Assembly (NCBI GenBank): GCA_017163975.1
Contig: JAFFSR010000087.1
Coordinates: forward strand, 930,001 to 994,000
Source of the DNA: Anastatus disparis
Lineage: Eukaryota; Arthropoda; Insecta; Hymenoptera; Eupelmidae
DNA: 64,000 nt
Direction of reading: 5' to 3'
Positions 4,516 to 62,090 of this stretch are shown piece after piece (the first letter of the stretch is position 1; each line of letters starts with the position of its first letter). A program made the translations under genes and the position numbers. Below the pieces are notes generated by a model. That model did not search any database, was not told the origin of the DNA, and saw nothing but the letters and a program-made list of their open reading frames with translations.

Positions 4516-6394
4516 CTATTTTGTATTTTTCTGCAGTAAGCCTCTCACCACTTCTAAACGAAAATGAGGATAAGAAATCTTTTTGTCAGTGGTACTTTTC
4601 ATTTTATATAACGCATGAGAATTTACCAGAACGAAATTGAGTGAGTGAAAATAAAGTTTTCGATACCATTTAGTAGATTTTCTAATCTTTTCTGCCAATG
4701 AAAGTTGTCTGTCTATGTTGTCAATCCCTCCCATATTTTTATTGTGGTCCACTATACATATTGGTTTTATAATATCTTTATTAGTACTCCAATGTTTCTT
4801 CCCTGTACTTGCGTAACCAACTTCATGGACTGTTGTTATCATGTAAACTTCTTTCTTGTCCATCCACTGTATTGCTAAATAAGAATGGGTGTGGGCTACT
4901 TCAATTTCACCTCAATCCAATTTACTGACAAGCTTGGGCATTCCTTTTCTGGTTTTCTTTACGGTCCCACACATACCAGTATCTTTGTCCTGGAGAAAAT
5001 TAGCAAGTTGAGGAGACGAGTACCAATTATCTACGAAGATAACGTGACCTTTGTTGAAATATGGTGTTAGGAAATCAACTACTATATCTCCAGAGATTCC
5101 CAAATCAAATTTTTCATAATCTGTATTAGATTCTGTATAGATAATGAATCGTAGTAGGAATCCAGTCTCACAACCAACCAATTCGAAAAATTTTATACCA
5201 AACCTGTGTCTTTTCAAGGGTAAATATTGCTTGAACTTCAATCTTCCTTTCCATAGCATTAAACTTTCATCAATGCAAAGATCCCAGGATGCAAAGTAGA
5301 GGAAAATTTCTGATTTAGAAAATCTATTACAGGTTTAATTTTTCTCAGAGGGTGGTTCTTGTAGGGTGATGCATTGTCCCTATTATTTTCAAAATGCAGA
5401 AAACGTAAAATTTGGAGATATCTATTACGGGTCATGTATTTACTGAATATTGGAGTGGATAATAGAGGATCCATACTCTAATAATCTTTGACATTACACT
5501 TAGGGTGAAATCAGATGGAGCGGAAAATATGCGACGGACCGTCACAAAACATTCATTCCGTCGCATTGTTTTCCGTCAAATTTTTTCCCTGTATTCACAT
5601 CGAACGGAGTAGAAGTTCTATGACATTGATTAGCAATGTTATAATTAAAAAACTATGTTGAATCAAAATATTTGCTTATAATAACAAAATATATTTTATT
5701 TTTACAAGGAAAGAATCTCATTAAAATAACATGGAATAATTATTCCCAACTTTTTTAACATTTTTGTTGTTAATTTAAAATTTGCGGACACATTTGTAGG
5801 CTATTTTAACAGTTTTTCAGCTAAATTCCGCTCCATGTGAATATAGGGAAAAAATTTGACGGAAAACAATGCGGCGGAATGAATGTTCTGTGACGTTTCG
5901 TCGCATATTTTCCGCTCCGTCTGATTTCACCCTTACGAACATGGCCCATGTTGATAGTTAGAGCAAGAAAGACTCGCAATTTTTCTACTGTTACATCTTT
6001 CCATGGAGCCATATTAGCATGGAATGGATTGGGATTTTGCTTCTGGAAGAGATTCATTTGTTCCAAAATTACTTCGAAAATATTCGAATTCATAAAGAAT
6101 TCAAAGTAAGCTAATGGAGTATGCTCTGGTATAGGAATATTTTCATAAAAATTAGCATGACCTACAAAGTCTTTTATGGAAGAGAAATCGACAAAATCGA
6201 AAAATACACCGCCATCTCTCTCAGGATCATCAAAGATTTCTGAAGAAGCATTTGGTTGTGATGCACCAGTCCGATCGTCAGCATACTCCTCTACTGGTTC
6301 TGATTCACCACCACTCCAAGCACTTATTATTTTGGCTCAAGGAAGGAAATTTCTGTTGTCGACTGGTGATGGACTCTATGAGTTGTCACGCTGA
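4516..6394 (-). pseudogene. piggyBac-type transposase, broken
   Basis: Read from right to left, the pieces follow the piggyBac (DDE_Tnp_1_7) order. First comes an acidic N-terminal region (about 6394-6100), then MNSNIFEVILEQMNLF and VTVEKLRVFLAL (6093-5936), DPLLSTPIFSKYMTRNRYLQ (5474-5259), the core with WKGRLKFKQYLPLKR, VIFVDNWYSSPQLANFL (5259-4912), and MGGIDNIDRQ with KWYRKLYFH (4863-4516). Stops and frame changes separate the pieces and a Harbinger-like MITE lies at 5503-5932. No C-terminal cysteine-rich domain is seen after LLQKNTK. The gene catalysed cut-and-paste transposition; this copy is dead. Confidence 0.9.
5503..5932. mobile_element. PIF/Harbinger-like MITE inside the piggyBac gene
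   Basis: A 430-bp element with about 110-bp terminal inverted repeats starting GGGTGAAATCAGA at both ends. It is flanked by identical TTA triplets (5500-5502 and 5933-5935), the TWA duplication of PIF/Harbinger elements. Removing the element and one triplet restores the reading frame of the surrounding transposase (arginine-lysine then CNVKDY). The insertion is therefore precise and later than the piggyBac copy. No coding capacity. Confidence 0.85.
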
Positions 6395-25928: not shown

Positions 25929-27992
25929 ATTGGGCCATATTTTTTTGGGTCTTATATTTTTTTAGTCTCTATATTCTTTTGGGCTTTACATTTTTTTGAG
26001 CCTTATATTTTCTTGCGCCCTATATTTTTTTGCGCCAAATATTTTTTTGGTCTCTATATTTTTTGGGCCTCATATTTTCTTAGGCCCTATATTTTTTTCA
26101 GCCCAATATTTTTTTGGGCCTAATATTTTTTTGAGCCCAATATTTTTTCGATTCTTATATATTCTTGGGCACTATATTTTATTGGGCCCAATATTTTTTT
26201 TAAATTTATATTATCTTGGGTTCTATAATTTTTTTGGGCCTTATATTTTTTTAGGCCCAATATTTTTTTGGGCCCGATATTTTTCTGGACCCAATATTTT
26301 TTTGGTCCCAATAATTTTATCGTCTCTTTATTTTTTGGGTTTCATATTTTTTGAGCCTTATATTTTTTTGGGCCCAATATTTTTTGAGCCCAATATTTTT
26401 TTCGGCCCAATATTTTTTCGATTCTTGTATATTCTTGGTCTCTATGTTTTTTTGGGCCTAATATTGTTTTTAATCCTATATTTTTTTGGGCCCAATATTT
26501 TTTTAAATTCATATTTTCTGGGGTTCTATAATTTTTTTGGGTCCTATATTTTATTGAGCTCTATATTTTTCTGAGCCTTATATTTTTTTAAGTCCAATAT
26601 TTTTTGGGCCCAATATCTCACTGGACCCAATATTTTTTTGGTCTCTATATTTTTTGGGCCTTTTATTTTCCTTGGGGCCTTTTTTTCGGGCACAATATTT
26701 TTTTGGTCTCTATATATTTTGGGCTTTATTTTTTTTGGGTCTCATATTTTTTTGGGCCCTATATTTTTTCTGAACCTTATATTCTCTTGGGCTCTATATT
26801 TTTTTAGGCCCAATATTTTTCCGATTTTTATATATTATTGGGCTCTATCTTTTTTGGCCCAATATTTTTTTGGGACTAATATTTTTCTGAAAATAATATT
26901 TTCTGGGGTTTTATAATTTTTTTGGGTCTTATATTTTATTTAGCTCTATTTTTCTGGGCTTTATATTTTTCAGGTCCTACATTTTTTTGAGTCCTATTAT
27001 CTTTAGGCCTCATTTTTTTGGGGTCTTATATTTTCTTGGGCTTTATATTTTTTGGGCTCAATATTTTATCGATTCTTTTGTAATCTTGGGCTTTATAGTT
27101 TTTTGAGCCCAATATTCATTCGATTGCTATGTATTCCTGTGCTCTATATTTTTGGACCTAATATTTTTTTTTAATTCATATTTTTTTGGGTTCTATAATT
27201 TTTTTGGGTCCTATATTTTATTAAGCTCTATATTTTTCTGGTCCTTATATTTTTCGGGCTTTACTTTTTTTTGAGTTTTATTTTCTTTGGGCCTTATATT
27301 GTCTTGGGTTCTAATTTTTTTGGGCCCAATATTTTTTCGATTCTTATATATTCTTTGGCTCTATATTATTCTGGGCTACATATTTTTTAGAAATTCATAT
27401 TTTCATGGGTTCTATAATTATTTTGGGTCCTATATTTTATTTAGCTCTATATTTTTATCAGCCTCATATTTTTTAGGCCCTACATTTTTTTGAGTCCTAT
27501 TTTCTTTGGGCCTTATTTTTTTCGGCCTCTTATTTTTTATCTTCCATATTTTTTTTGGTCCTATATTTCTCTAGGCCTAATATTTTTTCAGATCTACTTT
27601 TTCTCGAGTCCTATTTTCTTTGGGCCTCTAATTTTTTTGGGCCATTTATTTTTTTTTAACTTTTTTTTTAGGTCATATATTTTTTTAGGCTCTATATTTT
27701 TTTTAATCTTATATTTTTTAGGCTCAATATTTTTTTTATTATTATATTTTCTTGGTCTTTATATTTTTTGGGCCCAATATTTGTCTAATTCTTTTAATTT
27801 TTTGGGCCCGATATCCTTTTGATTCCTATATTTACTTGGGCTCTATATTTTTTTGATTCCTATGTATTCTTGGCCCAATATTTTTTTGAATCATATTTTT
27901 TTGAGCCTAATATTTTTTTTATCATTATATTTTCTTGGTTTCTATATTTTTTTGAGCCTAATATTTTTTGATTCTCATATTTACTTTGGCTG
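25929..27992. repeat. 17-bp minisatellite, about 120 monomers
   Basis: The monomer is close to CCCAATATTTTTTTGGG, often with TATATTTTT variants, running for about 2.06 kb. A diverged monomer pair with TTTTTTCGATTCTTATATAT recurs about every 250-400 bp (26141, 26411, 26816, 27067, 27330), so there is higher-order structure. Long open frames in it are by-products: 17 bp times three keeps a frame open and gives a hydrophobic FFGPNIFLG-type repeat. Its right end abuts Helitron helicase coding DNA. Confidence 0.92.
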
Positions 27993-43662: not shown

Positions 43663-43785
43663 AGTAGATAAGCTAAGCTGGTTCTAATTCACCTGAATTA
43701 GGAACGTATGCCGTTTCTACTTCACTTGAAGTAGAACTGGCATGTATTTCTAATTCAGATGAATTTGAACCAGCTTAGGGTTTTT
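43663..43785 (+). repeat. Left terminal inverted repeat of Polinton A
   Basis: It aligns with the inverse of 51765-51884 over about 120 bp at roughly 85-90% by eye. It contains three palindromes of the form TTCANNTGAA (TTCACCTGAA, TTCACTTGAA, TTCAGATGAA). Confidence 0.85.
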
Positions 43786-44139
43786 GGGGTGGGGGGAGCA
43801 TTTCTGTATCACCTAGACCTGATATAGGGTTTCGTGGTGGGAGAATCAATTGTAGCTCAGTGAGCTAGGATCGACATGGTATTTTTTTTTGGGAAGCAGT
43901 CAGCTGTGATGAAGCTGCTGCGAAATTTCGAAAGTTTCATAATTTTTTGTAATATTTTTTTTATGAATTAGAATCGGTATGAATTCGAATCGGTATAGAG
44001 GTAGGGGGGGGGGCAGTTTGAATTCATCTGAAGTAGAATTGAGGTGAAGTAGAATTGCAGAAACGAGTTGGAGTGGGGAGATTGATTCTAATTCATGTGA
44101 AGTAGAATTATTTGTCCCATATCTACTTAGTTCAAAACT
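43786..44139. other. Sub-terminal region of Polinton A
   Basis: No open frame. It repeats terminal-repeat words (TTCATCTGAAGTAGAATT, TTCATGTGAAGTAGAATT near 44023 and 44093) and has G-rich runs (43783-43797, 44004-44013). Confidence 0.5.
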
Positions 44140-44301
44140 TTATAGCTTTTTATATTTTATATCTTGAGATGGCATTTGCGATTTATATTTTTCATAGTAC
44201 TCTTTCCATGTTGTTTTCTCATCCTTCACCTTTTTATCAGGTGAAAGAAGAGGAGTGTACTCTGAATAATTTTGAGTGGTATGACTTGGAGTCTGTCCCA
44301 T
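44140..44301 (-). CDS. Small MGQ protein, possible N-myristoylated protein (element A)
   Basis: 53 codons from the ATG at 44301. An upstream in-frame ATG at 44361 would mask the motif. The N-terminus MGQTPS fits the myristoyltransferase pattern (Gly2, Ser6). The rest is charged, with PLLSPDKK, EYYEKYKSQ and a C-terminal YKKL. There is no transmembrane segment. A protein of the same length and layout (MGQ, PLL, YxKY, YKK) lies at the same relative place in element B. Its role is unknown; membrane attachment of a virion or assembly protein is a guess. It is the last gene before the left terminal repeat. Confidence 0.55.
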   Translation of the reverse strand: MGQTPSHTTQNYSEYTPLLSPDKKVKDEKTTWKEYYEKYKSQMPSQDIKYKKL

Positions 44302-44439
44302 GATGAAATGAATGTGAATCACGATGTGTTTGCTTTTTATAGGAAGTGGTGCGAGCCCCAACCATCACCCTCCACCAGTGAGATACATCCATTAAACATT
44401 ATCTCTCCTTTTTTACTTCCTATGGCAGCATAAATCAAT

Positions 44440-44889
44440 TTAGTTGTTTTTAGTAAAGCATCTCTTCATAAGTCGAGCTTTGTATGTATCATTATGATTA
44501 GGGCAAACAGTCACAAGCTTTATTTTATCAGCTGGTGGAAAACCCATTTCTGTGACATCACATACTTTAATCTTGAAACGTTCTAGCAATTTTTTTCTTA
44601 TATTACCCACGACAAAAATTTTTGTCGCATCATGTAAGGCTTCTCTAAGAATATTGCCTACGTCAGTATAGGAAATGGTACCAGAGTTTCATGACAAACC
44701 ATGGTAGTAATACTTTAACCACGTATTTTATTCTTTGTACTCATCCGAAAGCCTATGCCAGGAATATGGCTTCTTGAAAAGGAGTAGTAGAGGCTTGGTA
44801 TCATCGTTGAGCGGCATTATAGCCAACTCTTTGAGAATGTAGTCATCACCAGACTTTTTGAAACCTTGCATATCCACCAAGTACTCCAT
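44440..44889 (-). pseudogene. DxQGF protein gene, copy 1 (element A)
   Basis: From ATG 44889: MEYLVDMQGFKKSGDDYILK, YSWHRL, YYHGLS, a middle part with NILREALHDATKIFVVGN and a C-terminal PNHNDTYKARLM. Two in-frame stops lie after residues of about 50 and 63, the second where the sister copies have Trp. It belongs to the same family as the next gene and as 59963-60634 in element B. The family recurs in Polinton-type elements of insects; I do not know its function. The Asp-rich start (VDxQGF) could suit a nuclease fold, but that is only a guess. Confidence 0.7.
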
Positions 44890-44979
44890 GCTAATTAATA
44901 ACTTTTTTTACAGTTCTGTTTCACTGTCGGTATTAGCATGAGTGTCTTCCCAGTCCATAACCCAATCACTGAAATCACT

Positions 44980-45406
44980 GAATTACAACTTTTTTTATTG
45001 ATTTAACGTTGTTAACAGCACACGTATTTTTATACATGCAATTATGATGTGAACAAGAGACTGTTTTAGTTAGCCGTTGATCAAAATGGGGAATACCCAG
45101 TTCACTAATATCCACAACTTTAAAATCAAACTTCTCTAACCACTTTTTTTTACTTTACCAATCACAAAAACTTGTGTAGCGTTCTGCAGAGTTTGTCGAA
45201 GAATTCCAAGCTAGTCCATGATAGCAAAGCTCGAGCCAGAGATTTTCACGCTTGTATTTTGTAGTTAGCTTTTTCCAAGGAAATGGTGGTTTGAAAATAT
45301 GCACCGTTGGTTCAGACGACTCAACAAGAGGAACAGCAGCCAACTCTTTTAAAACAAACTCTTTACCTGGCTTTTTAAAACCTTGTAAGTCCACTGCGTA
45401 TTCCAT
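44980..45406 (-). pseudogene. DxQGF protein gene, copy 2 (element A)
   Basis: From ATG 45406: MEYAVDLQGFKKPGKEFVLK, PFPWKKLTTKYKRENLWLEL, CYHGLAWNS. The frame then changes near 45180, and the remainder (ATQVFVIGKVKKKWLEKF, VSCSHHNCMYKNTCAVNNV) continues in another frame to about 44980. The C-terminal Cys/His cluster (CSHHNCMYKNTC) is shared in form with the element B copy (CVPHSTKDKYKRSVC) and could bind zinc. It is tandem with copy 1, with about 90 bp between them, so a local duplication is likely. Confidence 0.7.
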
Positions 45407-45468
45407 CTTGTTGAAGAATGAGATCTCAGCTCACTCTCACTTTCTCATATCCTACTATCCTTACTCCT

Positions 45469-46575
45469 TTAGACTAATTTTCTGACATCACCGCTTATGG
45501 CGTTGTATTCTATGATTCTATCATGTAAGATTAGACAGTAAGCTGAAGTTCCAACTGGAAAGCTTTGTTTGGTCTCGAATTCAAGACGAACATCAACTAG
45601 AGCACTCTTCAGAGAATCATTTTGTTTTGAACAATCGATGACTATCAGTGGCATGTGATTGATATAATCTGATTTTTTCAGCATTGGCTCGGACTCCTTC
45701 CCATAGTATGCATTTTGGAAATCAGCATACATATCGTATAATATTGCATACTGATTATTGACAATATCAAGGTTCATATTTCCGTAAGCATAGTATGTAG
45801 AATTGAGAAATAGTTTTACATTGCTCAAATTGCAGTGATCAAACTCACTAGCGTTAGCAGTTTTTTGTCCTTTTCGATTTGTCTGGAAACCAAGAATGAT
45901 AAAACGAGGTTTCTCCAGGTGATTAGATGTTTTGACTGTCCATACATGTCTCGTTGATGCCGGTAATAATGGATATTTGTATAATTCCTAGGAACGAAAA
46001 CTCATTGAGATAGGTTTATTTTTCTCGATTTGTCGAAGTATGCGAATTTTACATTCATTGGATAACTATATGTGAGGCATAAGCCACTCGATCCTTAAAA
46101 GATCAATTTTCAAATTTTCATAAGCATTAGTAGCATTCGGCGTTTGTATTACTACGTTAATATCGTTCCTGGATCTCGTGAGGATAAGTTCATGTTTAAC
46201 ATTGACTATGATTTTGCGATAATCTTCGGCAAAGCCTAAAATCAAACTGATAGATATGAAAATATCAAAATAGCCATCGTTATTAATGATCTTCCAAGTT
46301 TCCGTTATATCAATCCAACCAGCATTTTCTATAATCAAACTCTGACTAGGGTTGAGTGATACCCTACCCTTCATAACGGTGATCAATCCCACATTCTTAC
46401 AGCGATCGATCTCTATAGCATTGATTTCATAGCGAACTTCCTCGAATAGATGACAGATGCCGTTATTAATTAAGTTAGTTCTTGCTAAAGCAGTGCCATC
46501 TTGTTGAGTTAATTTTCCCACTATGTGTAGAGAACTCCGCGAAGGCAAAAGATTTAAATCTTGATGTTGATTTGA
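45469..46575 (-). pseudogene. Double-jelly-roll capsid-like protein, truncated and broken (element A)
   Basis: Two open pieces: 46548-46066 (PSRSSLHIVGKLTQQDGTAL, NNGICHLFEEVRYEINAIEI) and 45828-45469 (MSNVKLFLNSTYYAYGNMNL, GTSAYCLILHDRIIEYNAIS), with coding DNA containing stops between them. The pattern matches insect proteins carrying a double-jelly-roll-like domain, as found for major capsid proteins of Polinton-like viruses (family recognition, not computed). The usual N-terminus is absent: the frame runs upstream directly into polymerase coding DNA at about 46575. It would have formed virion capsomers; it is dead here. Confidence 0.65.
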
Positions 46576-47785
46576 TTTTTCATCAAAGATGACACAACTA
46601 CTGAAGTTAAGTCTGGCAATAAGCGCCTCTGCACCATAGCGTCCTTTCTATTTATTGACGAGCTTGATGTCCACATGTTTTCGCTCATTCTCCATGGTTT
46701 TTCCATAAACAGCGTTGTTGAAGAGTTTAAAGAGCATCTTCTCGAACTCATTCTTAGCATTTTTTCTCTTCTCGCTATTCAAGTCGATGTATTTCTTGAG
46801 CCATCGACTTTGATCAAATTGAAGAGCTCGATGGATTTTCTTTAGACGTAATCCATGTAGTAATGCCTGCTTCAATGCACGATTATGAAGCACGTAACGT
46901 TGCTTATCGTGCAAAGTTGTCATCAATTTAGTCTGTTTGGAATCTGGAGGTGCTCTGTGCTCAGCACAAAATGGCATATCCTTGTGTTTGTCGTGAAGAG
47001 ATTGAGGATATTCCAAGTCCACTTCCAGTATGTAACCAAACGGATAGTCATCAGGAATATCGAAGAAGTCATATCTGTCCAGGTTATCTACCCATCTGAA
47101 GCCACCAGATGGTAATAGCTCAGTCATGACCCAACCGTACAAGTTATTGACGTCGTAATACATCAAATATTTTTCATCTTCATTGGGATTATAGTCTTGA
47201 CCCATGTACGGATTATTCGCTTTGCCATAGCGATTACAACACTGACTGATCCCACCTCGTATACCTCGTTCGATGAACATAAGCATGTCGATATCAGTCA
47301 GAAGTTCTAATTTTACCTGAGTATACTTTAACATCGCATCCCACGTCAATCCAGGAGTAGTGTAATAGTGGGCAGGATCCAAGTCATATGCCTCCAAACA
47401 ATTTTTTCTAAAATTCTCAAAGACTTCGGCTAGAAGATAAACATCCGTCTTGAGATACAAATCAGAGTACTGTCCAAGTGTTTGAATATTGAATGTCTGC
47501 CAAACTTGTTTTGTATGTTCATAATCTTCATCACTGATGTGGGCCTTGTAAAAGCTGCTGTAAAAGCTCTTCTCTGATGGAAGGAAGCTCAATTTCTTCC
47601 AGCTTGTCAAACGAGCTAACGTAGTCATACGGAAAGAGACCTTTTCTCTTTAAAGGCATGATTTGATCAGTAGTAAATCCATCGGTTTGCTTAAAAACTC
47701 GATCTACGACGTCGTGTTTTTCCAAGTATGTCGATAACTTGTCCAACGATGAAGCCATGAACCAAAACGAGTCAATAAAGCGCAA
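46570..47785 (-). pseudogene. DNA polymerase B, C-terminal part, truncated (element A)
   Basis: Protein-primed-type family B polymerase (DNA_pol_B_2), which would replicate the element. From 47785: RFIDSFWFMASSLDKLSTYL, then YLKTDVYLLAEVFENFR (third exonuclease region), PGLTWDAMLKYT, GGISQCCNRYGKANNPYM, motif A YYDVNNLYG and motif B KLFNNAVYGK. A frame change near 47630 and another near 46650 break it. Coding similarity ends at about 46575, before motif C (YxDTD), which is missing, and the capsid-like gene begins at once. The deletion removes the catalytic carboxylates of motif C, so no active enzyme is possible. Confidence 0.9.
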
Positions 47786-47894
47786 ATAATATCAGTTCCT
47801 TCCACAAACTTTGTAAAAGATATATATCTTTCCTTCGTTTGTGGAAAAAGCAATACTCGTCCTGGAAAACAAGTAGCGATCTCTTTTATAAAAA

Positions 47895-48152
47895 AATATT
47901 AAAAATAAAAAAAAAACTTTTTAATGTACTACGTTTTTATAATGAACCAAAAAGTATAAAATAATGTGTAATAAAATGAATAATGATTTGAAATAAAAAA
48001 ACGTGGGGCGCATGTTTATTATTATGTATTGTATGCACCCCACGTTTTTTTATTTCAAATCATTATTCATTTTATTACACATTATTTTATACTTTTTGGT
48101 TCATTATAAAAACGTAGTACATTAAAAAGTTTTTTTTTTATTTTTAATATTA
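47895..48152. repeat. Near-perfect palindrome, about 118-bp arms
   Basis: The left arm ends ACGTGGGGCGCAT and the right arm begins ATGCACCCCACGT. Arms match almost without change through TTTGAAATAAAAAAACGTGG and outwards to TAATATT. The loop is about 20 bp. A diverged partial third copy of an arm follows at 48155-48235. Confidence 0.9.
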
Positions 48153-48524
48153 TTTCATATTTTTTAGTTCAATTAAAAAACGTGGTAGATTGAAAATTTT
48201 TTTTTTATTTAGATATTATCTTATACCTTTTGGTATTATTATTATTATTAATATTATTTATCGTGTTGTCCAACAGTGCATATTATATAGCATATATATT
48301 GTTATCAAGGGACTAAAACGTGTTTCATCTATTTTTTTTAGAGAACACGTAATCGCATGCTGAGTTTCCCGCCATTTTGACGATAATGACGCTATTAGAA
48401 ATTCAACCAAAATTTATTGTTTTATGCATTGATAGACCATAAAATGAATAAAATACAGTCTCAAATTTTATATGTACAATACAAAATGCTGTAATTTATG
48501 TCTAATTGCAATATGAGAAGTTAA

Positions 48525-48990
48525 AGAATTTTAAAAATTTTCGAAGATGGTTAGACACTAATGTTAAAAGTATATCTATATATAAAATCTTCAAAATTTC
48601 AATTTTTCCAATATCTCCGTATATAATTGTATTAATATATTTTTCGGTGGGAATATATATTTAATTATATTATCCAACAATGCATGCAAAAATATAATAT
48701 TGAATATATTGATATATTAATATATTTGATATATTAATATATTAATATATTTGATATATTAATATATTAATATATTACTATATTAATATATTACTATATT
48801 TGATATATTAATATATTAATATATTAATATATTAATATATCAAAAGAAGATTTTTAAAATTTTCGAAGATTTTTAGACACTAATGTTAAAAGTGTATCTA
48901 TATATAAAATCTTCAAATCTTCAATTTTGCCAACATCTCCGTATATGATTGAATATATTAATATATTGTTCGGTAGATATATATATTTTT
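48525..48990. repeat. Direct repeat around an ATATTAATAT array
   Basis: TTTTCGAAGAT... with TTAGACACTAATGTTAAAAG occurs at about 48537 and 48860. Both copies continue through ATCTATATATAAAATCTTCA and end near ATCTCCGTATAT. Between them lies a 48690-48845 array of ATATTAATATATTTG words. Confidence 0.85.
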
Positions 48991-49093
48991 TTTATAATAT
49001 TGCATTGTCATCCAGTTCCGAGCTATATTTAAAATTTCAAGTCTCTAGCTCATCAGGAAGTTAGTTTACAATCGGTTGCAAAATTCGTACCGA

Positions 49094-49094
<1 letters not shown>

Positions 49095-49140
<46 letters not shown>

Positions 49141-49141
49141 C
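49095..49141. repeat. (CAGA)n microsatellite
   Basis: About 11 units of GACA after CGTACCGAA. The preceding DNA (49010-49094, CGAGCTATATTTAAAATTTC) looks like the conserved end of a dispersed repeat that carries this tail. Confidence 0.85.
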
Positions 49142-49186
49142 CAAAGCGAGTTAATAAAAACGTAGTAACGTAGTAAAAACGTAGTA

Positions 49187-50521
49187 ATATGTGCATCATA
49201 ACCACTTAGGTTATGAAAGATCACTGGTATCGTGCGTGAATCTTGATATTTGCTGTTGCATTCGTTGTGCGCAGATCCTCGATACGCACCAGTTAGATGA
49301 CAATGATCTCTAATTTTCTTTTCTCCAGGAGTGAAAGGTTTCTGGCAAATATGACATAAGCGAGCACTATCGAATCTAATTTTTTCTATTATTGTCAAAT
49401 TTCTCATTGGCTGCGGGTTTTTATACATATCTTGTAACTTTACAGCTAATACTTGAAGATTTTTCACGAAATACTTGGCTGGTGTTTCATCTAATTGTTC
49501 ACTTTGCCTATAGCTTTTATATTCTGATAAAGTGTCATCATAGTTACATTTTACGAAATATCCAACACTGTAAGCCTCGTGTAACTGGTAGGCACGTTTC
49601 TCATTTTCCAAAGGTCGAAGCAGACACTCAAAATCCGCATAAACAACAAACGGCACGGGAATATTATTCGTAAAGTTTTTAAATTGCAATACACTATCCC
49701 TTTTGTCAGGTAGAGTTACCTTAAATTTGTTTAAATTCACATAATCAGTTACGTGTGCTGTTAATTTTTCAGCTGTTGAAAAATAATGCAAACATCGATC
49801 ACAAATGTGAGTTTTGTGATTTCTTGCACTCAATTGTCTTTCCACTAATCTAGAAAGATTTTTGATCCAAACGTAGTGATGCTTATAATCGATGGTGTCG
49901 AAAGAATCGTTAAGTTGTTGTTGTTCTTCTTCTTCGTCTTCATCGATGTAGAACTTCTCGACTAAAAGAAGATTCACGTGCTTATTCTTCTTGCATGTTG
50001 TGACATGATGCGGTAAAACAACAAACTTATTCCCTGCCTTTTTAAAAAAATAAATATTCACAGAGATATCATTCTGCTTCTCAAACTTACCAGCATCTTT
50101 TGGATCCACTGGAAACTCTATTTCTTTAAAATTTAATTCGTCTCTATATTGCTCATATGAAGAAACTCTATGAGCATTTTGCTGTACTGGATGTAAAACA
50201 GACAAAATAGCCCACTTAAAACACTGATCATCTCTATTCTCAACATTAATACAAGCTCTTTTGATCTTAATAAAATCAGGCGTTTCCACAAAAGTATTAC
50301 CTCCTCTCATGGGATTATATTTATTGATATTAACTACTAAATGAAGAATCGCTCGCAGAGACCAGCCTGATTCCTGTTCAGCAAATTCCTCCATGTCAGT
50401 CTTGATAGGTTGCTCAATGTTCAATACGTACCACTCATCAAGGTTAGTTGTAGAGTAAATATGAATAGTCTTCGTATTGAAATACTTGATGTCATAAGTT
50501 TCAACATCAGCTTTCCTCCAA
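49187..50521 (-). pseudogene. DNA polymerase B, N-terminal and exonuclease part (element A)
   Basis: Open from an in-frame stop at about 50535. The first in-frame Met is about 45 residues in, and no ATG suits the upstream part (GQAWRKADVETYD), so the start or an intron is unresolved. Seen in order: FKWAILSVLHPVQ, a Cys2His2-type finger (HICDRCLHYFSTAEKLTAH), exonuclease I PFVVYADFECLL (Asp-Glu pair), a second Cys/His cluster CHICQKPFTPGEKKIRDHCH, and HNLSGYDAH (exonuclease II). The open frame then runs into the insertion. It is the 5' half of the gene at 46570-47785, transcribed away from the divergent + gene. Confidence 0.88.
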
Positions 50522-50930
50522 GCTTGTCCATAGTGATTTCTTTCCTAAGTTACTCGCACAGCTGCTCCGAGCCAATCATGTGTCACCACTAGTTTTTTCC
50601 TTTAAGCTGGTCCAATGTGATTTCTCGTCTCGTCTCGGTGAAAAGTTATTTCCAATACTCAACTGCTTCGAAGGAATAAGGCATTGCTTTGTTCTGCAAC
50701 TGGTTGCGGTTTTCCAATCGACTGAATTTCTCTGCGTGAAAGACCATATACTTATAGACTTTCGCGCAGCTACTCCGAACCAACCAGACGTCGTGACCGA
50801 TGATCATCTCTTCGCAATTTCAGTTCGTCGCACGTATAAATAGAGCGCGCTTGATCACGGATAACACATTCGTTCTTTCGACTCATAGAGAGAAAGTTCT
50901 AAGGTAAATTACTTCACAAGAGCAATTAGA
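50522..50930. promoter_or_regulatory. Divergent promoter region between polymerase and acidic ORF
   Basis: 409 bp with internal repeats: AGCTTGTCCATAGTGATTTC (50534) against AGCTGGTCCAATGTGATTTC (50604), and CAGCTGCTCCGAGCCAA (50559) against CAGCTACTCCGAACCAA (50766). The right side carries the TATA box of the + gene. No TATA was assigned for the polymerase. Confidence 0.6.
50835..50868 (+). promoter_or_regulatory. TATA box and putative initiator of the acidic ORF
   Basis: TATAAATAG at 50835-50843, and a CATTCG with A at 50868, 33 bases downstream, the normal TATA-to-start distance. The ATG follows at 50931. Confidence 0.7.
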
Positions 50931-51539
50931 ATGGATTCGCAAGAGCTGTTGGAAATAGATTCACAGGAGCTACGGGAATTAGAAATTTTTTCGCTGAGCA
51001 CTTTCGATTTTCTACAAGAAGGATTGCATGATTTGCAACCTCTTATGTTCAACGAAGATATTCCAATGTTGATAATCGCCGAGACACCTGTAGATATGGA
51101 AGCTGCTAGCATTATACAGACATTAGAGGAAGAGGAAAATATCCAGCCCATACCTGCATTGCGTTGACCTAAGATGTCATCACCGGTGGAATCTACTGCA
51201 GCAAAGACACAAATAAAATCTCCCGATATGTCACCAATAGAGACATGGATTTTCAACCCATTTTCTCTAAAATATGAGAAAATGGAAAAAAAGGATACCG
51301 AGGATGTTTCAGAATTATTAGATCAAAAAATGGAGTACAACGAGGATGATTGTGAGTGGTACTCGCCAAATTTCTCTCCGGTTGAAAAAATTAATTCACC
51401 GGAAATAGAAATAGTTGATGTATCAAGCTCTCCAGAAATCGTTTATCAAAATTTTACACCAAAAAGAAAATTCGAGGAATCACATGATCATTCAGAATGT
51501 TTGCGAAATGTAAAACGCAAATTGAATTGTACAATTTAG
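50931..51539 (+). CDS. Acidic protein of unknown function with one in-frame TGA (element A)
   Basis: Two pieces in the same frame: 78 codons from ATG 50931 (MDSQELLEIDSQELRELEIF, ending IQPIPALR), then TGA CCT AAG, then 121 codons from ATG 51174 (SSPVESTAAKTQIKSPDMSP to RNVKRKLNCTI). Both are rich in Glu/Asp and in Ser-Pro sites. The end carries basic KRKF and VKRKL motifs that could act in nuclear import. No known domain was recognised. The TGA may be a single nonsense mutation, a readthrough site, or the genes may be separate. It has its own TATA box and a histone-type stem-loop shortly after the stop, and is the only + gene of the element. Confidence 0.65.
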
Positions 51540-51557
51540 GTTTATAAAAAAAAAATC

Positions 51558-51573
51558 GGCTCTTTTTAGGGTA
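51558..51573 (+). terminator. Degenerate histone-type 3' stem-loop
   Basis: GGCTCTTTTTAGGGTA begins 19 bases after the stop of the acidic ORF, preceded by AAAAATC. Half of the stem is mispaired compared with the intact copy at 51601. Confidence 0.5.
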
Positions 51574-51600
51574 AAAAAAAAACACAATGGTTCAACAATC

Positions 51601-51616
51601 GGCCCTTTTCAGGGCC
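51601..51616 (+). terminator. Histone-type 3' stem-loop (element A)
   Basis: GGCCCTTTTCAGGGCC: a 6-bp stem and TTTC loop, the exact form of the replication-dependent histone mRNA end (GGYYCT TTTC AGRRCC). It lies 62 bases after the stop at 51539, on the coding strand, with ACAATC before it and ATAAAA after. No histone coding DNA is nearby. Confidence 0.8.
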
Positions 51617-51764
51617 ATAAAATTTTAAACGTTGGAACAAATACTTATTTTTTTAGATAATGTATTTAATATAATTAATAATTTTTATTTCAGATTTTTT
51701 TTATATTTAATATAATTTTTATTTTCAGGATTTTCATCTAGAGTTAATTTAGCTCAGATGATAA

Positions 51765-51884
51765 AAAACCTTGCCGGTTTGAATTCAGGTGAATTAGAAA
51801 TGCACGTCAATTCTACTTCAAGTGAAGTAAAAACGGCATACGTTTCTAATTCAGGTAAATTCGAACCGGCTCAGCTTATCTACT
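51765..51884 (-). repeat. Right terminal inverted repeat of Polinton A
   Basis: Inverse of 43663-43785, ending TCTACT; the same three TTCANNTGAA palindromes are present. An open frame over it (51758-51973) is a by-product. Confidence 0.85.
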
Positions 51885-57090: not shown

Positions 57091-57138
57091 TGTTTTATAC
57101 TACTACAAAGGTTATAAGTTTCTACGTTTATTATCAGT

Positions 57139-57154
57139 GGTCCTGAAAAGGACC
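57139..57154 (-). terminator. Histone-type 3' stem-loop (element B)
   Basis: On the - strand GGTCCTTTTCAGGACC: a 6-bp perfect stem and TTTC loop, the canonical metazoan histone mRNA end. Flanks AATC before and ACCACTGATAATAAA after. It starts 20 bases after the stop codon of the MGQ protein (57175). An AATAAA follows at once, so ordinary polyadenylation is also possible. Confidence 0.85.
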
Positions 57155-57174
57155 GATTACGGTAAGTATATTAT

Positions 57175-57348
57175 TTATATTTTCTTATATCCCTGCATTT
57201 CTGGGAATGTATGTATATTAGTTGAATATTTAGAATAAAACTGTATTTTCTCAGATTTTTCATCTTTAAGAAGAGGTTTCTTCTCTTCCTTGGTTCCATC
57301 GGTAACAAGGTAAGATGGTCGTTTCAGCGTTCCTTGAGATTGACCCAT
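57175..57348 (-). CDS. Small MGQ protein, possible N-myristoylated protein (element B)
   Basis: 57 codons from ATG 57348. It starts MGQSQGTLKRPSYLV (Gly2 with small residues at positions 4 and 6, compatible with N-myristoylation), then a charged EEKKPLLKDEK stretch, QFYSKYS, and ends GYKKI. It has the same length class and motif order as 44140-44301 in element A. TATAAATA at 57418-57425 (- strand) may serve as its promoter. The stop is followed within 21 bases by the histone-type stem-loop. Function is unknown. Splice-like GTAAG/CAG words on the + strand here are not needed to explain the gene. Confidence 0.6.
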   Translation of the reverse strand: MGQSQGTLKRPSYLVTDGTKEEKKPLLKDEKSEKIQFYSKYSTNIHTFPEMQGYKKI

Positions 57349-57556: not shown

Positions 57557-57760
57557 TTATTTATTGTTCATATATTCATTATATTTTTTTAACAATATAG
57601 GTTCGATAATAGATTTCATTCTTTTAATTCTCATTCCGAATCTTTCTCTGTCACGACCTATTTGTTTCCACTCACCGCGACGCGCACATTGACTTGCATA
57701 AGTCCACACATACATTACTTTAACATTAGGTTTTCCTTCTTTAAAGTGTACACGTTTCAT
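57557..57760 (-). CDS. Small basic protein of unknown function (element B)
   Basis: 67 codons, MKRVHFKEGKPNVKVMYVWT onward. Rich in Arg and Lys (GRDRERFGMRIKRMK) with a C-terminal helix-prone stretch (ILLKKYNEYMNNK). It starts 14 bases after the stop of the upstream reading frame (57774), as in a tight gene block. No domain recognised. Nucleic-acid binding is plausible from charge only. Confidence 0.45.
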   Translation of the reverse strand: MKRVHFKEGKPNVKVMYVWTYASQCARRGEWKQIGRDRERFGMRIKRMKSIIEPILLKKYNEYMNNK

Positions 57761-60759: not shown

Positions 60760-62090
60760 TTAAGCAGAGAAATCAGTTATAATATTACGACTTGAATCTA
60801 TTTCCAGAACGTTATCGTATTCGGCGTAAATGATGCAATTTATCGTTTGTTCCAAGGCCTGATCGAATTTCACTTCTATCCGTACACTTCCACGTTTAAT
60901 TAGATTCCAGTGTTGAGCAGAATTTGCAGAAAGATCTGGTGTCAGGTAAATACAAACAGACAGAAACCTCTAGAATAATCTACTTGGTTGAGACAAAGGG
61001 ACTCATTGAGAAAATGTATTCCAGTACCAGAAAATAGCGCATGATAAGCTTCAACGAACTGAGGATTATCACCAGTGAATTTTGGCTGTAGAGGTTTACC
61101 TGGTACTTGCACACCGTCAATGTAGAGCGAGAAATAATTTATAGAAAAATGTTGAAAGTTAAATGGATTGAATTGCCTATTGCCATTAAATGCTCTGTTA
61201 TCGACAAAACCAATAATAATTCTTTTAGGTAACTGGCCTAAAATAACGTTGTCCAGAGTGTCACCATGTATACCTCTATGCGTGGTAAACGATTTTACTT
61301 CAACACGAGTGATAGGATATTTTGCAGTTGCCTTTGTTAAAGCATTGGCATGGGCCAGTAATATTCCTGGACTAATTTTTACACGTCGTATCATCAAAGA
61401 AGCTTCTTTTATGCTAACGCTAAATGTACTATTTTCAGAAGCAACCATGAGACAAAATGCGTCTTTACTTCGTACAAGTCGTACTCTAACTTCAACACCG
61501 TTTAATAAAAATTTATTTTGATTGAAAACATCGCAATGTAAATGACCAATTAAATCTATTGTTTTTGAATCTCCTGTACAATATTGTCGATTCAAAAGGC
61601 CAAGGTTAGCTCCAGGTTCATTACGCCTCACGTTGGGGAGAGCTTCCATCTTTCCTACAGTATCGAGGTACCAAAGAGACGTGGATAGATGTGAATTCAT
61701 CGTGGAAGTTGAGTAATTCAACAATGTTTCTATATAAGCTCTGTACGGGTATGCATTGTTTGGCGGTGAAATGAGCTTTTGGTTAAAGAATATATCAATC
61801 TAATTGAAGAGTGAGTGAAGAAAATTGTTAACAGCTCCTACTTACTTCCTATTATACTTCCTATTGTCAGCCGGAACTTTTGGCACGATTTGTACACGAA
61901 CATTGAGCATCGTGTGAGCTAGATCTATGTAATCTTTACCACCTGGTACTACAAATTCAATGGGGCCATCGTCGGTAAGCGATGAAACTGGTATATTGAA
62001 TAAATTGTGAAGATTCCAAGGATGTCTGCGTTGGTGGAAGCGTAAATAAGTCCAATTCTGATTTCATGCATTCGCATGAATTGGCATGTA
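60760..62090 (-). pseudogene. Major capsid protein, Polinton type, frame changes (element B)
   Basis: Matches the Polinton major capsid family (often annotated as F54H12.2-like). N-terminal coding at 62080-61990 (KSELDLFTLPPTQTSLES), then a frame change; GGKDYIDLAHTMLNVRVQIV at about 61900; a disturbed stretch at 61740-61850; a long open stretch to 60942 (TSLWYLDTVGKMEALPNVRR, DNVILGQLPKRIIIGFVDNR, GTGIHFLNESLC). A single-base loss at about 60948 shifts the frame before the last 60 codons, which run to 60760. It would have built the double-jelly-roll capsid. Three or more frame changes make it non-functional. Confidence 0.9.

Follow-up and report, generated by a model that had tools for sequence, protein, structure and literature searches.

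The closest described system to the structures analyzed here is the 3' end of metazoan replication-dependent histone mRNAs (Rfam RF00032), with its partners SLBP and the U7 snRNP. PMC2781718 and PMC8178370 describe histone-type 3' ends as what distinguishes the replication-dependent histone mRNAs of animals, and these sources and PMC7026596 provide the background on the animal histone-mRNA pathway for S-phase coupling. Polintons (Mavericks) and adintoviruses, the second system, carry PolB, a double-jelly-roll (DJR) capsid and inverted repeats. The third is that of mimivirus and virophage transcripts, in which any palindrome at a gene end marks the poly(A) site. Among the papers listed by searches of the openly available literature, including PMC11071296, we found none joining Polintons or adintoviruses with histone-type 3' ends.

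We analyzed a 64-kb stretch of Anastatus disparis DNA, called the window throughout, which holds two Polinton elements, A and B, each with a gene followed by a histone-type stem-loop (Table 1). The stem-loops share with the metazoan histone 3' end a 6-bp stem, a TTTC loop, GG...CC closing, an AATC prefix, a CA suffix, a place just past the stop codon and an ACGT block (the latter as in host H4, H2A and H1-like genes). They differ from it in belonging to non-histone genes of virus-like elements, in often occurring as two to five hairpins and, for the window copies, in scoring below the Rfam gathering score. Shared with Polintons and adintoviruses are PolB, a DJR capsid and inverted repeats (all three in element A); the histone-type 3' ends are a difference from the 7 records from other sources that were compared, in which they were absent. 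As in mimiviruses and virophages there is a hairpin at the ends of viral genes; here, however, the sequence is specifically that of animal histone mRNAs, and a downstream element like the host's follows it.

Table 1. Positions of the elements, genes and 3' end signals in the window.
Feature	Position	Strand	Details
Element A (Polinton)	43663-51884	.	PolB and DJR capsid pieces between inverted repeats 43663-43774 / 51773-51884
Element A small gene, 121 aa	51174-51539	+	Near right end of element; 69 matches in host genome
Decayed first stem-loop of element A, GGCTCTTTTTAGGGTA	51558-51573	+	3 Watson-Crick and 2 G-U pairs; relatives carry one to five hairpins there
Intact histone-type stem-loop of element A, GGCCCTTTTCAGGGCC, GGCCCT-TTTC-AGGGCC	51601-51616	+	Pattern, Rfam, folding, relatives
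Candidate histone downstream element of element A, TAAACGTTGGAAC	51626-51638	+	9 nt past hairpin; ACGT core at 12 nt
Candidate histone downstream element of element B, TAAACGTAGAAAC	57118-57130	-	8 nt past hairpin; ACGT core at 11 nt
Histone-type stem-loop of element B, GGTCCTTTTCAGGACC, GGTCCT-TTTC-AGGACC	57139-57154	-	Pattern, Rfam, folding, relatives
MGQ gene of element B, 57 aa, starts MGQSQGTL	57175-57348	-	At least 150 host-genome matches
Element B neighbour gene MKRV	57560-57760	-	No hairpin; negative control
Element B capsid frame, F54H12.2-like	60942-61724	-	3.8 kb upstream of hairpin

Element A has PolB and a DJR capsid between inverted repeats, the features that define a Polinton. 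For element B, in which the MGQ gene is followed along the window by MKRV, further frames and the capsid frame, membership was tested on the relatives of its capsid, which are F54H12.2-like proteins of wasps and ants; wasps and ants also supplied the closest named relatives of the element proteins. No relative of the MGQ protein was found in the protein database, and its N-terminus, MGQS, looks myristoylation-like by eye. A Pfam search found no histone coding sequence in either hairpin gene. By BLASTP there was no similarity between the MGQ gene and the 121-aa gene of element A, nor between the two capsid frames compared; an earlier note on this DNA had described an unrelated gene with the same kind of 3' end.

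Several related or neighboring features were noted along the way. A further MGQ gene with an intact hairpin (L158) lies 14 kb left of the window at C87:916220-916390; together with a capsid match at C87:911592 it points to a second B-like element close by. A small frame beginning with MGQ precedes the hairpin at L017, where the DJR capsid is of the element-A type, and a diverged MGQ frame lies ahead of the hairpin at L081. Within the window we observed by eye long GPxIFF-type repeat frames at 25996-26574 and 27490-27822, probably tandem-repeat DNA, and two frames on the minus strand (4516-5259) that resemble a broken piggyBac-type transposase.

The stem-loop of element B starts 20 nt past the MGQ stop codon (57175-57177) with AATC immediately 5' of it. 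Its sequence, strand, prefix and distance are as the earlier note had claimed, and that observation was understated, the downstream block described below also being present. In element A the intact stem-loop lies 61 nt beyond the stop of the 121-aa gene, while the decayed copy at 51558 gave no Rfam match and is identified from the relatives of the element-A-type gene. The loose pattern GGYYYTTHTNARRRCC had just 2 matches in the window, compared with 0.02 expected from dinucleotide shuffles, and a third-order Markov estimate put the expected number per window at 0.007 for hairpins of this type and at 3e-6 for those with the AATC prefix. The distance between the two occurrences is 5.5 kb and not the 20 kb given in the earlier note. 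A chance match was ruled out by the shuffles, the Markov estimate and the genome counts against reversed patterns.

Both window hairpins matched RF00032 (Histone3) over all 46 positions, with 32.8 and 32.5 bits (E values of 3e-6 and 3.6e-6), and both have its 6-bp stem, 4-nt histone-type loop and conserved flanks. These scores are 1.2 and 1.5 bits below the gathering score of 34, and a default search at that score gave nothing; because of this we liken the two copies to RF00032 in their working and do not class them as Rfam members. RNA folding returned the 6-bp stem and 4-nt loop for both, at energies that are ordinary for the composition (z of -0.9 and -1.9).

Behind each intact hairpin lies an ACGT-centred block that is a candidate U7 site. 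In histone pre-mRNA, the element that pairs with U7 snRNA occupies this place behind the hairpin. The two blocks are identical at 11 of 13 positions, a score that 0.8% of random window pairs equal or better, and the ACGT-centred block is common to the window sites and the host H4, H2A and H1-like hairpins. We used host histone loci as a yardstick (L011-L014, L022-L024, L028 and L038; H1-like assigned by a rough rule) and found that the H2A, H2B, H3, H4 and H1-like genes all have the same kind of hairpin, 16-49 nt past the stop. ACGT occurred 13-15 nt past the hairpin in 5/5 H4 genes, the 1 H2A gene and after the last hairpins of five H1-like genes (n = 10 flanks in the spacing measurement), and the core was absent after H3 (5/5 complete frames) and H2B (1 gene). 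Because H3 and H2B are without ACGT, it is thus the H4, H2A and H1-like blocks that the Polinton blocks appear to resemble.

The host encodes an SLBP RNA-binding domain (PF15247): contig C4 has two matches separated by 136 bp, of which one is interrupted by a stop. The Rfam U7 model had 0 matches in the host genome, and control genomes also gave none. A pattern of ACGTTT plus an Sm site produced 17 matches versus 27 in the control, none of them U7-like to Rfam; one of these pattern matches, L237, has a strong 3' stem and was set aside as having no Rfam support.

We propose, with a probability of roughly 0.87, that hairpin and ACGT block together make up a two-part 3' end signal of the histone pre-mRNA type, and that the mRNAs carrying it are processed by host SLBP and U7 and tied to S phase. 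The proposal builds on what is observed: signals in the sequence that match those of host histone genes, that lie at particular genes in a set position and orientation and that are conserved, and an SLBP domain in the host. From these we infer transcription, SLBP and U7 binding, cleavage, lack of a poly(A) tail, S-phase coupling and early-gene status. Host RNA polymerase II would transcribe the hairpin-bearing Polinton genes, host SLBP would bind the stem-loop, and the U7 snRNP would pair with the block; the RNA would then be cut between the two, and the resulting mRNA would have the stem-loop at its 3' end and no poly(A) tail. In animals the histone-mRNA 3' pathway is tied to DNA replication, and from this link it would follow that Polinton hairpin genes are expressed in S phase, when the element can replicate. 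If, as early genes, they drive the cell into S phase, they would reinforce their own expression. Given the histone-like hairpin, block, spacing and position, SLBP/U7 cleavage is the most economical reading; the probability given to the proposal rests on blind tests of gene flanks.

The first of these tests used the MGQ gene. We scored the best 150 of 549 host-genome candidates for the MGQ protein and took 80 of them by position and completeness, blind to the 3' flank, with up to 150 nt of flank each; of these, L145 and L150 had entered the hairpin sample earlier. All 80 had a hairpin, defined as a 16-mer at least 14/16 identical to that of the window, 19-24 nt past the stop. Six Watson-Crick pairs were present in 53 of these hairpins and five plus one G-U pair in 11 more, so that 27/80 had at least one non-Watson-Crick pair.

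We then compared 21 window-type MGQ copies with 49 copies of 54-74% protein identity. Between the groups the hairpin had an identity of 0.937, the block 0.929 and AATC 0.922. The 16-nt spacer from stop to AATC had 0.862, coding sequence 0.78 and the spacer that separates hairpin from block 0.637; beyond the block the values were 0.46, 0.43 and 0.41. At the MGQ 3' end, both halves of the signal are preserved and the intervening and distal sequence is not.

The second gene gave a similar picture. We fetched the 3' flanks of 20 of the host-genome matches of the 121-aa gene and found at least one hairpin in 19/20 of these element-A-type genes, with six Watson-Crick pairs in at least one hairpin in 16/20. 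The genes had 0-5 hairpins each. The usual spacing within arrays was 32-37 nt, some arrays having about 60-65 nt instead, and the block stood 11-12 nt past the last hairpin in 15/20. When a hairpin was sought within 100 nt of the stop, it was present in 12/12 MGQ segments and 4/6 segments of the element A gene, compared with 0/14 for MKRV, 0/3 for C-terminal DJR pieces, and 0/3 each for N-terminal DJR pieces and the element A upstream frame, which are not always true gene ends. Five other window genes tested had no hairpin past the stop. In this one genome, two unrelated Polinton gene families carry the hairpin as a fixed component.

These flanks also bear on the possibility that the hairpins target SLBP but have no role in 3' processing, serving either as a sponge or as a stability or translation element in polyadenylated mRNAs. 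Arrays of two to five hairpins could hold several SLBP molecules, and an AATAAA 42 nt past the MGQ stop makes poly(A) processing a possible alternative there. However, conservation is as strong for the block as for the hairpin, and in 15/20 element-A-type genes the block comes after the last hairpin, as a processing signal predicts, and in the MGQ flanks read there is a single hairpin (the best-scoring one was scored). We consider action on SLBP without processing very improbable.

We also scanned the 939-Mb host assembly (399 contigs). The 20-nt form ATCGGYYCTTTTCARRRCCA had 930 exact matches and its reversed pattern 0; the right part of the hairpin followed by AACGT at 9-15 nt had 806 matches and its reversed control 2. 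Of 71 genome places listed, 56 passed the Rfam gathering score, including hairpins after element-A-type genes in L031 and L037. We sampled the first 100 of the 930 sites (contigs C2-C65), all of which fall within 95 loci of 0.8-3 kb (L040-L134), and obtained 93 distinct contexts after merging identical ones and dropping those too near a locus end. One of 12 window Polinton frames was matched by 35/95 loci (33/93 contexts), and 60/95 had no such match at the 0.8-3 kb length. ACGT was found 11-14 nt past the hairpin in 60/93 contexts, any ACGT occurring in 9/93 control stretches. It was absent from the 43 nt past the hairpin in 26/93, which were upstream array members, the AAACAT cluster and the Tc1/mariner-like repeat described below, and a few others.

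Histone genes are probably a minority among the 930 sites. Searches with host H3, H4 and H2B by tblastn found nothing in the 95 sampled loci. With the best 150 of 197 candidates scored, PF00125 had at least 144 histone matches in the genome, most of them on contigs C247, C306, C372 and C373, and among the matches listed none of the 144 was within 200 kb of the 100 listed hairpin sites, with the proviso that PF00125 misses H1 and perhaps H4. For the sampled sites, the tblastn result and the PF00125 distances rule out an inserted histone gene fragment.

By upstream sequence, the 93 contexts fell into 14 clusters of 27, 12, 11, 7, 7, 7, 7, 4, 3, 3, 2, 1, 1 and 1 members. The ACGT block was present in at least some members of 12/14; AAACAT replaced it in 5/7 members of one 7-member cluster, and another 7-member cluster was a Tc1/mariner-like repeat without the block. 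Stem pair 3 was C-G in 71 contexts, T-A in 19, C-A in 2 and T-G in 1, and pair 4 was C-G in 78, T-A in 8, C-A in 5 and T-G in 2, the search pattern having permitted mismatches at both positions. Three complementary stem types were present. Fisher values for covariation of 1e-16 and 5e-7 serve as a guide only, as the copies are related and the p-values overstate covariation.

The Tc1/mariner-like repeat, which looks transposase-like by eye, has the blockless histone hairpin near both ends in opposite orientation. It was seen at L063/L064 (C12:1605429 and 1607037), L090/L091 (C27:4685557 and 4686590), L096/L097 (C31:490123 and 491731) and L102 (C33:582911), and the hairpins of the three pairs are 1.0-1.6 kb apart.

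A signal so widespread could in principle be a functionless relic, an ancestor having captured a histone gene 3' end that was then carried along passively. Host histone genes do have the same kind of sequence, the element copies share descent, and the Tc1/mariner-like repeat indicates that the motif can be mobilised. Passive carriage is nevertheless at odds with 93-94% identity of hairpin and block between MGQ groups when the spacer between them is at 64% and the sequence beyond at 41-46%, with the three complementary stem types, and with a block kept in some members of 12/14 clusters and replaced by AAACAT in most of another. We therefore regard a passive relic as very improbable; as to its origin, the signal may go back to a histone 3' end that was captured long ago and then kept by selection.

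The reading of hairpin and block as a processing signal was also examined from the capsid side. Of 2404 capsid candidates 147 were scored, and 32 of the matches, those on contigs C2-C65, were examined. Hairpin plus block occurred 3.4-4.6 kb downstream on the same strand in 23/32, as in element B, one of these 23 resting on a match to the 20-nt hairpin pattern, compared with 0/32 for a mirrored control; 9/32 had no hairpin plus block downstream among the matches listed. Genome matches to CTTTTCAGGACCACCATTTTAATAATAACGT (for example C7:809110, C57:931912 and C46:588288) represent a further hairpin family outside the first pattern, and several of its members have a capsid match about 4 kb upstream, which puts them in the place that the MGQ gene has in element B. 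That the hairpin is instead a DNA-level feature of the element, serving replication, packaging or recombination with no RNA signal, is hardly credible: the element A hairpin is 157 nt from the right inverted repeat and some hairpins are close to transposon ends, but the hairpin is on the sense strand 19-24 nt past the stop in 80/80 MGQ genes, the block is as in host histone genes, and three hairpin sites in both orientations occur within 2.6 kb at C2:134454-137079.

The two refuting conditions named in the earlier note, and the enrichment at gene ends that it proposed to examine, came out in its favor. Hairpin density compared with random DNA came out at 930 versus 0, and 806 versus 2 with the block; the search for an inserted histone fragment as the source found no H3, H4 or H2B in 95 loci and no listed PF00125 match within 200 kb; and enrichment at element gene ends was 80/80 for MGQ and 0/14 for MKRV, with 23/32 for capsid matches versus 0/32 mirrored. 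The further claim of a general trait of such elements is supported for one genome, with 80/80 MGQ and 19/20 element-A-type genes, and not for the records elsewhere (0/7).

In loci L010-L134, the 200 nt upstream of a hairpin contain the ends of 64 different non-histone frames that are 50 aa or longer. Their median length is 104 aa and their median charge -2, and none of the 64 has an LxCxE motif. Motifs like VIDLVS or IIDIT, which we take to resemble SUMO-interaction motifs, were seen in 16/64 (for example in L041, L050, L060 and L083).

We also searched for the signal in Polintons from other sources. No relatives turned up in IMG/VR when the queries were the MGQ protein, the capsid protein or either of two capsid alignments, and the pattern AATCGGYYCTTTTCARRRCC had no match there. 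Alignments of PolB matched 2 IMG/VR contigs and 5 contigs from MAG bins. These 7 Polinton records (L001-L009) comprise two long ones, of which 16.1 of 17.4 kb and 13.6 of 15.1 kb were scanned, and five fragments of 4.5-6.6 kb; the hairpin was present in 0/7, with no Rfam Histone3 match at E <=1 and no pattern match.

It seems fairly likely that Polintons of this insect lineage have, in more than one lineage, placed unrelated genes under the histone-mRNA pathway in place of polyadenylation, forming a virus-encoded class of S-phase-coupled genes, and that the arrays may also compete for SLBP with the histone mRNAs of the host. Polinton genes that end in the host histone hairpin and its downstream signal suggest that the elements borrow the histone-mRNA machinery, which is normally active during DNA copying. 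As a caution, genome scans for histone hairpins can pick up mobile elements. The loci offer a direct test of Polinton gene timing and many natural variants of SLBP and U7 targets. With about 800 copies of the signal and two unrelated Polinton gene families in which it is fixed, they would show mobile virus-like elements using the histone-mRNA pathway.
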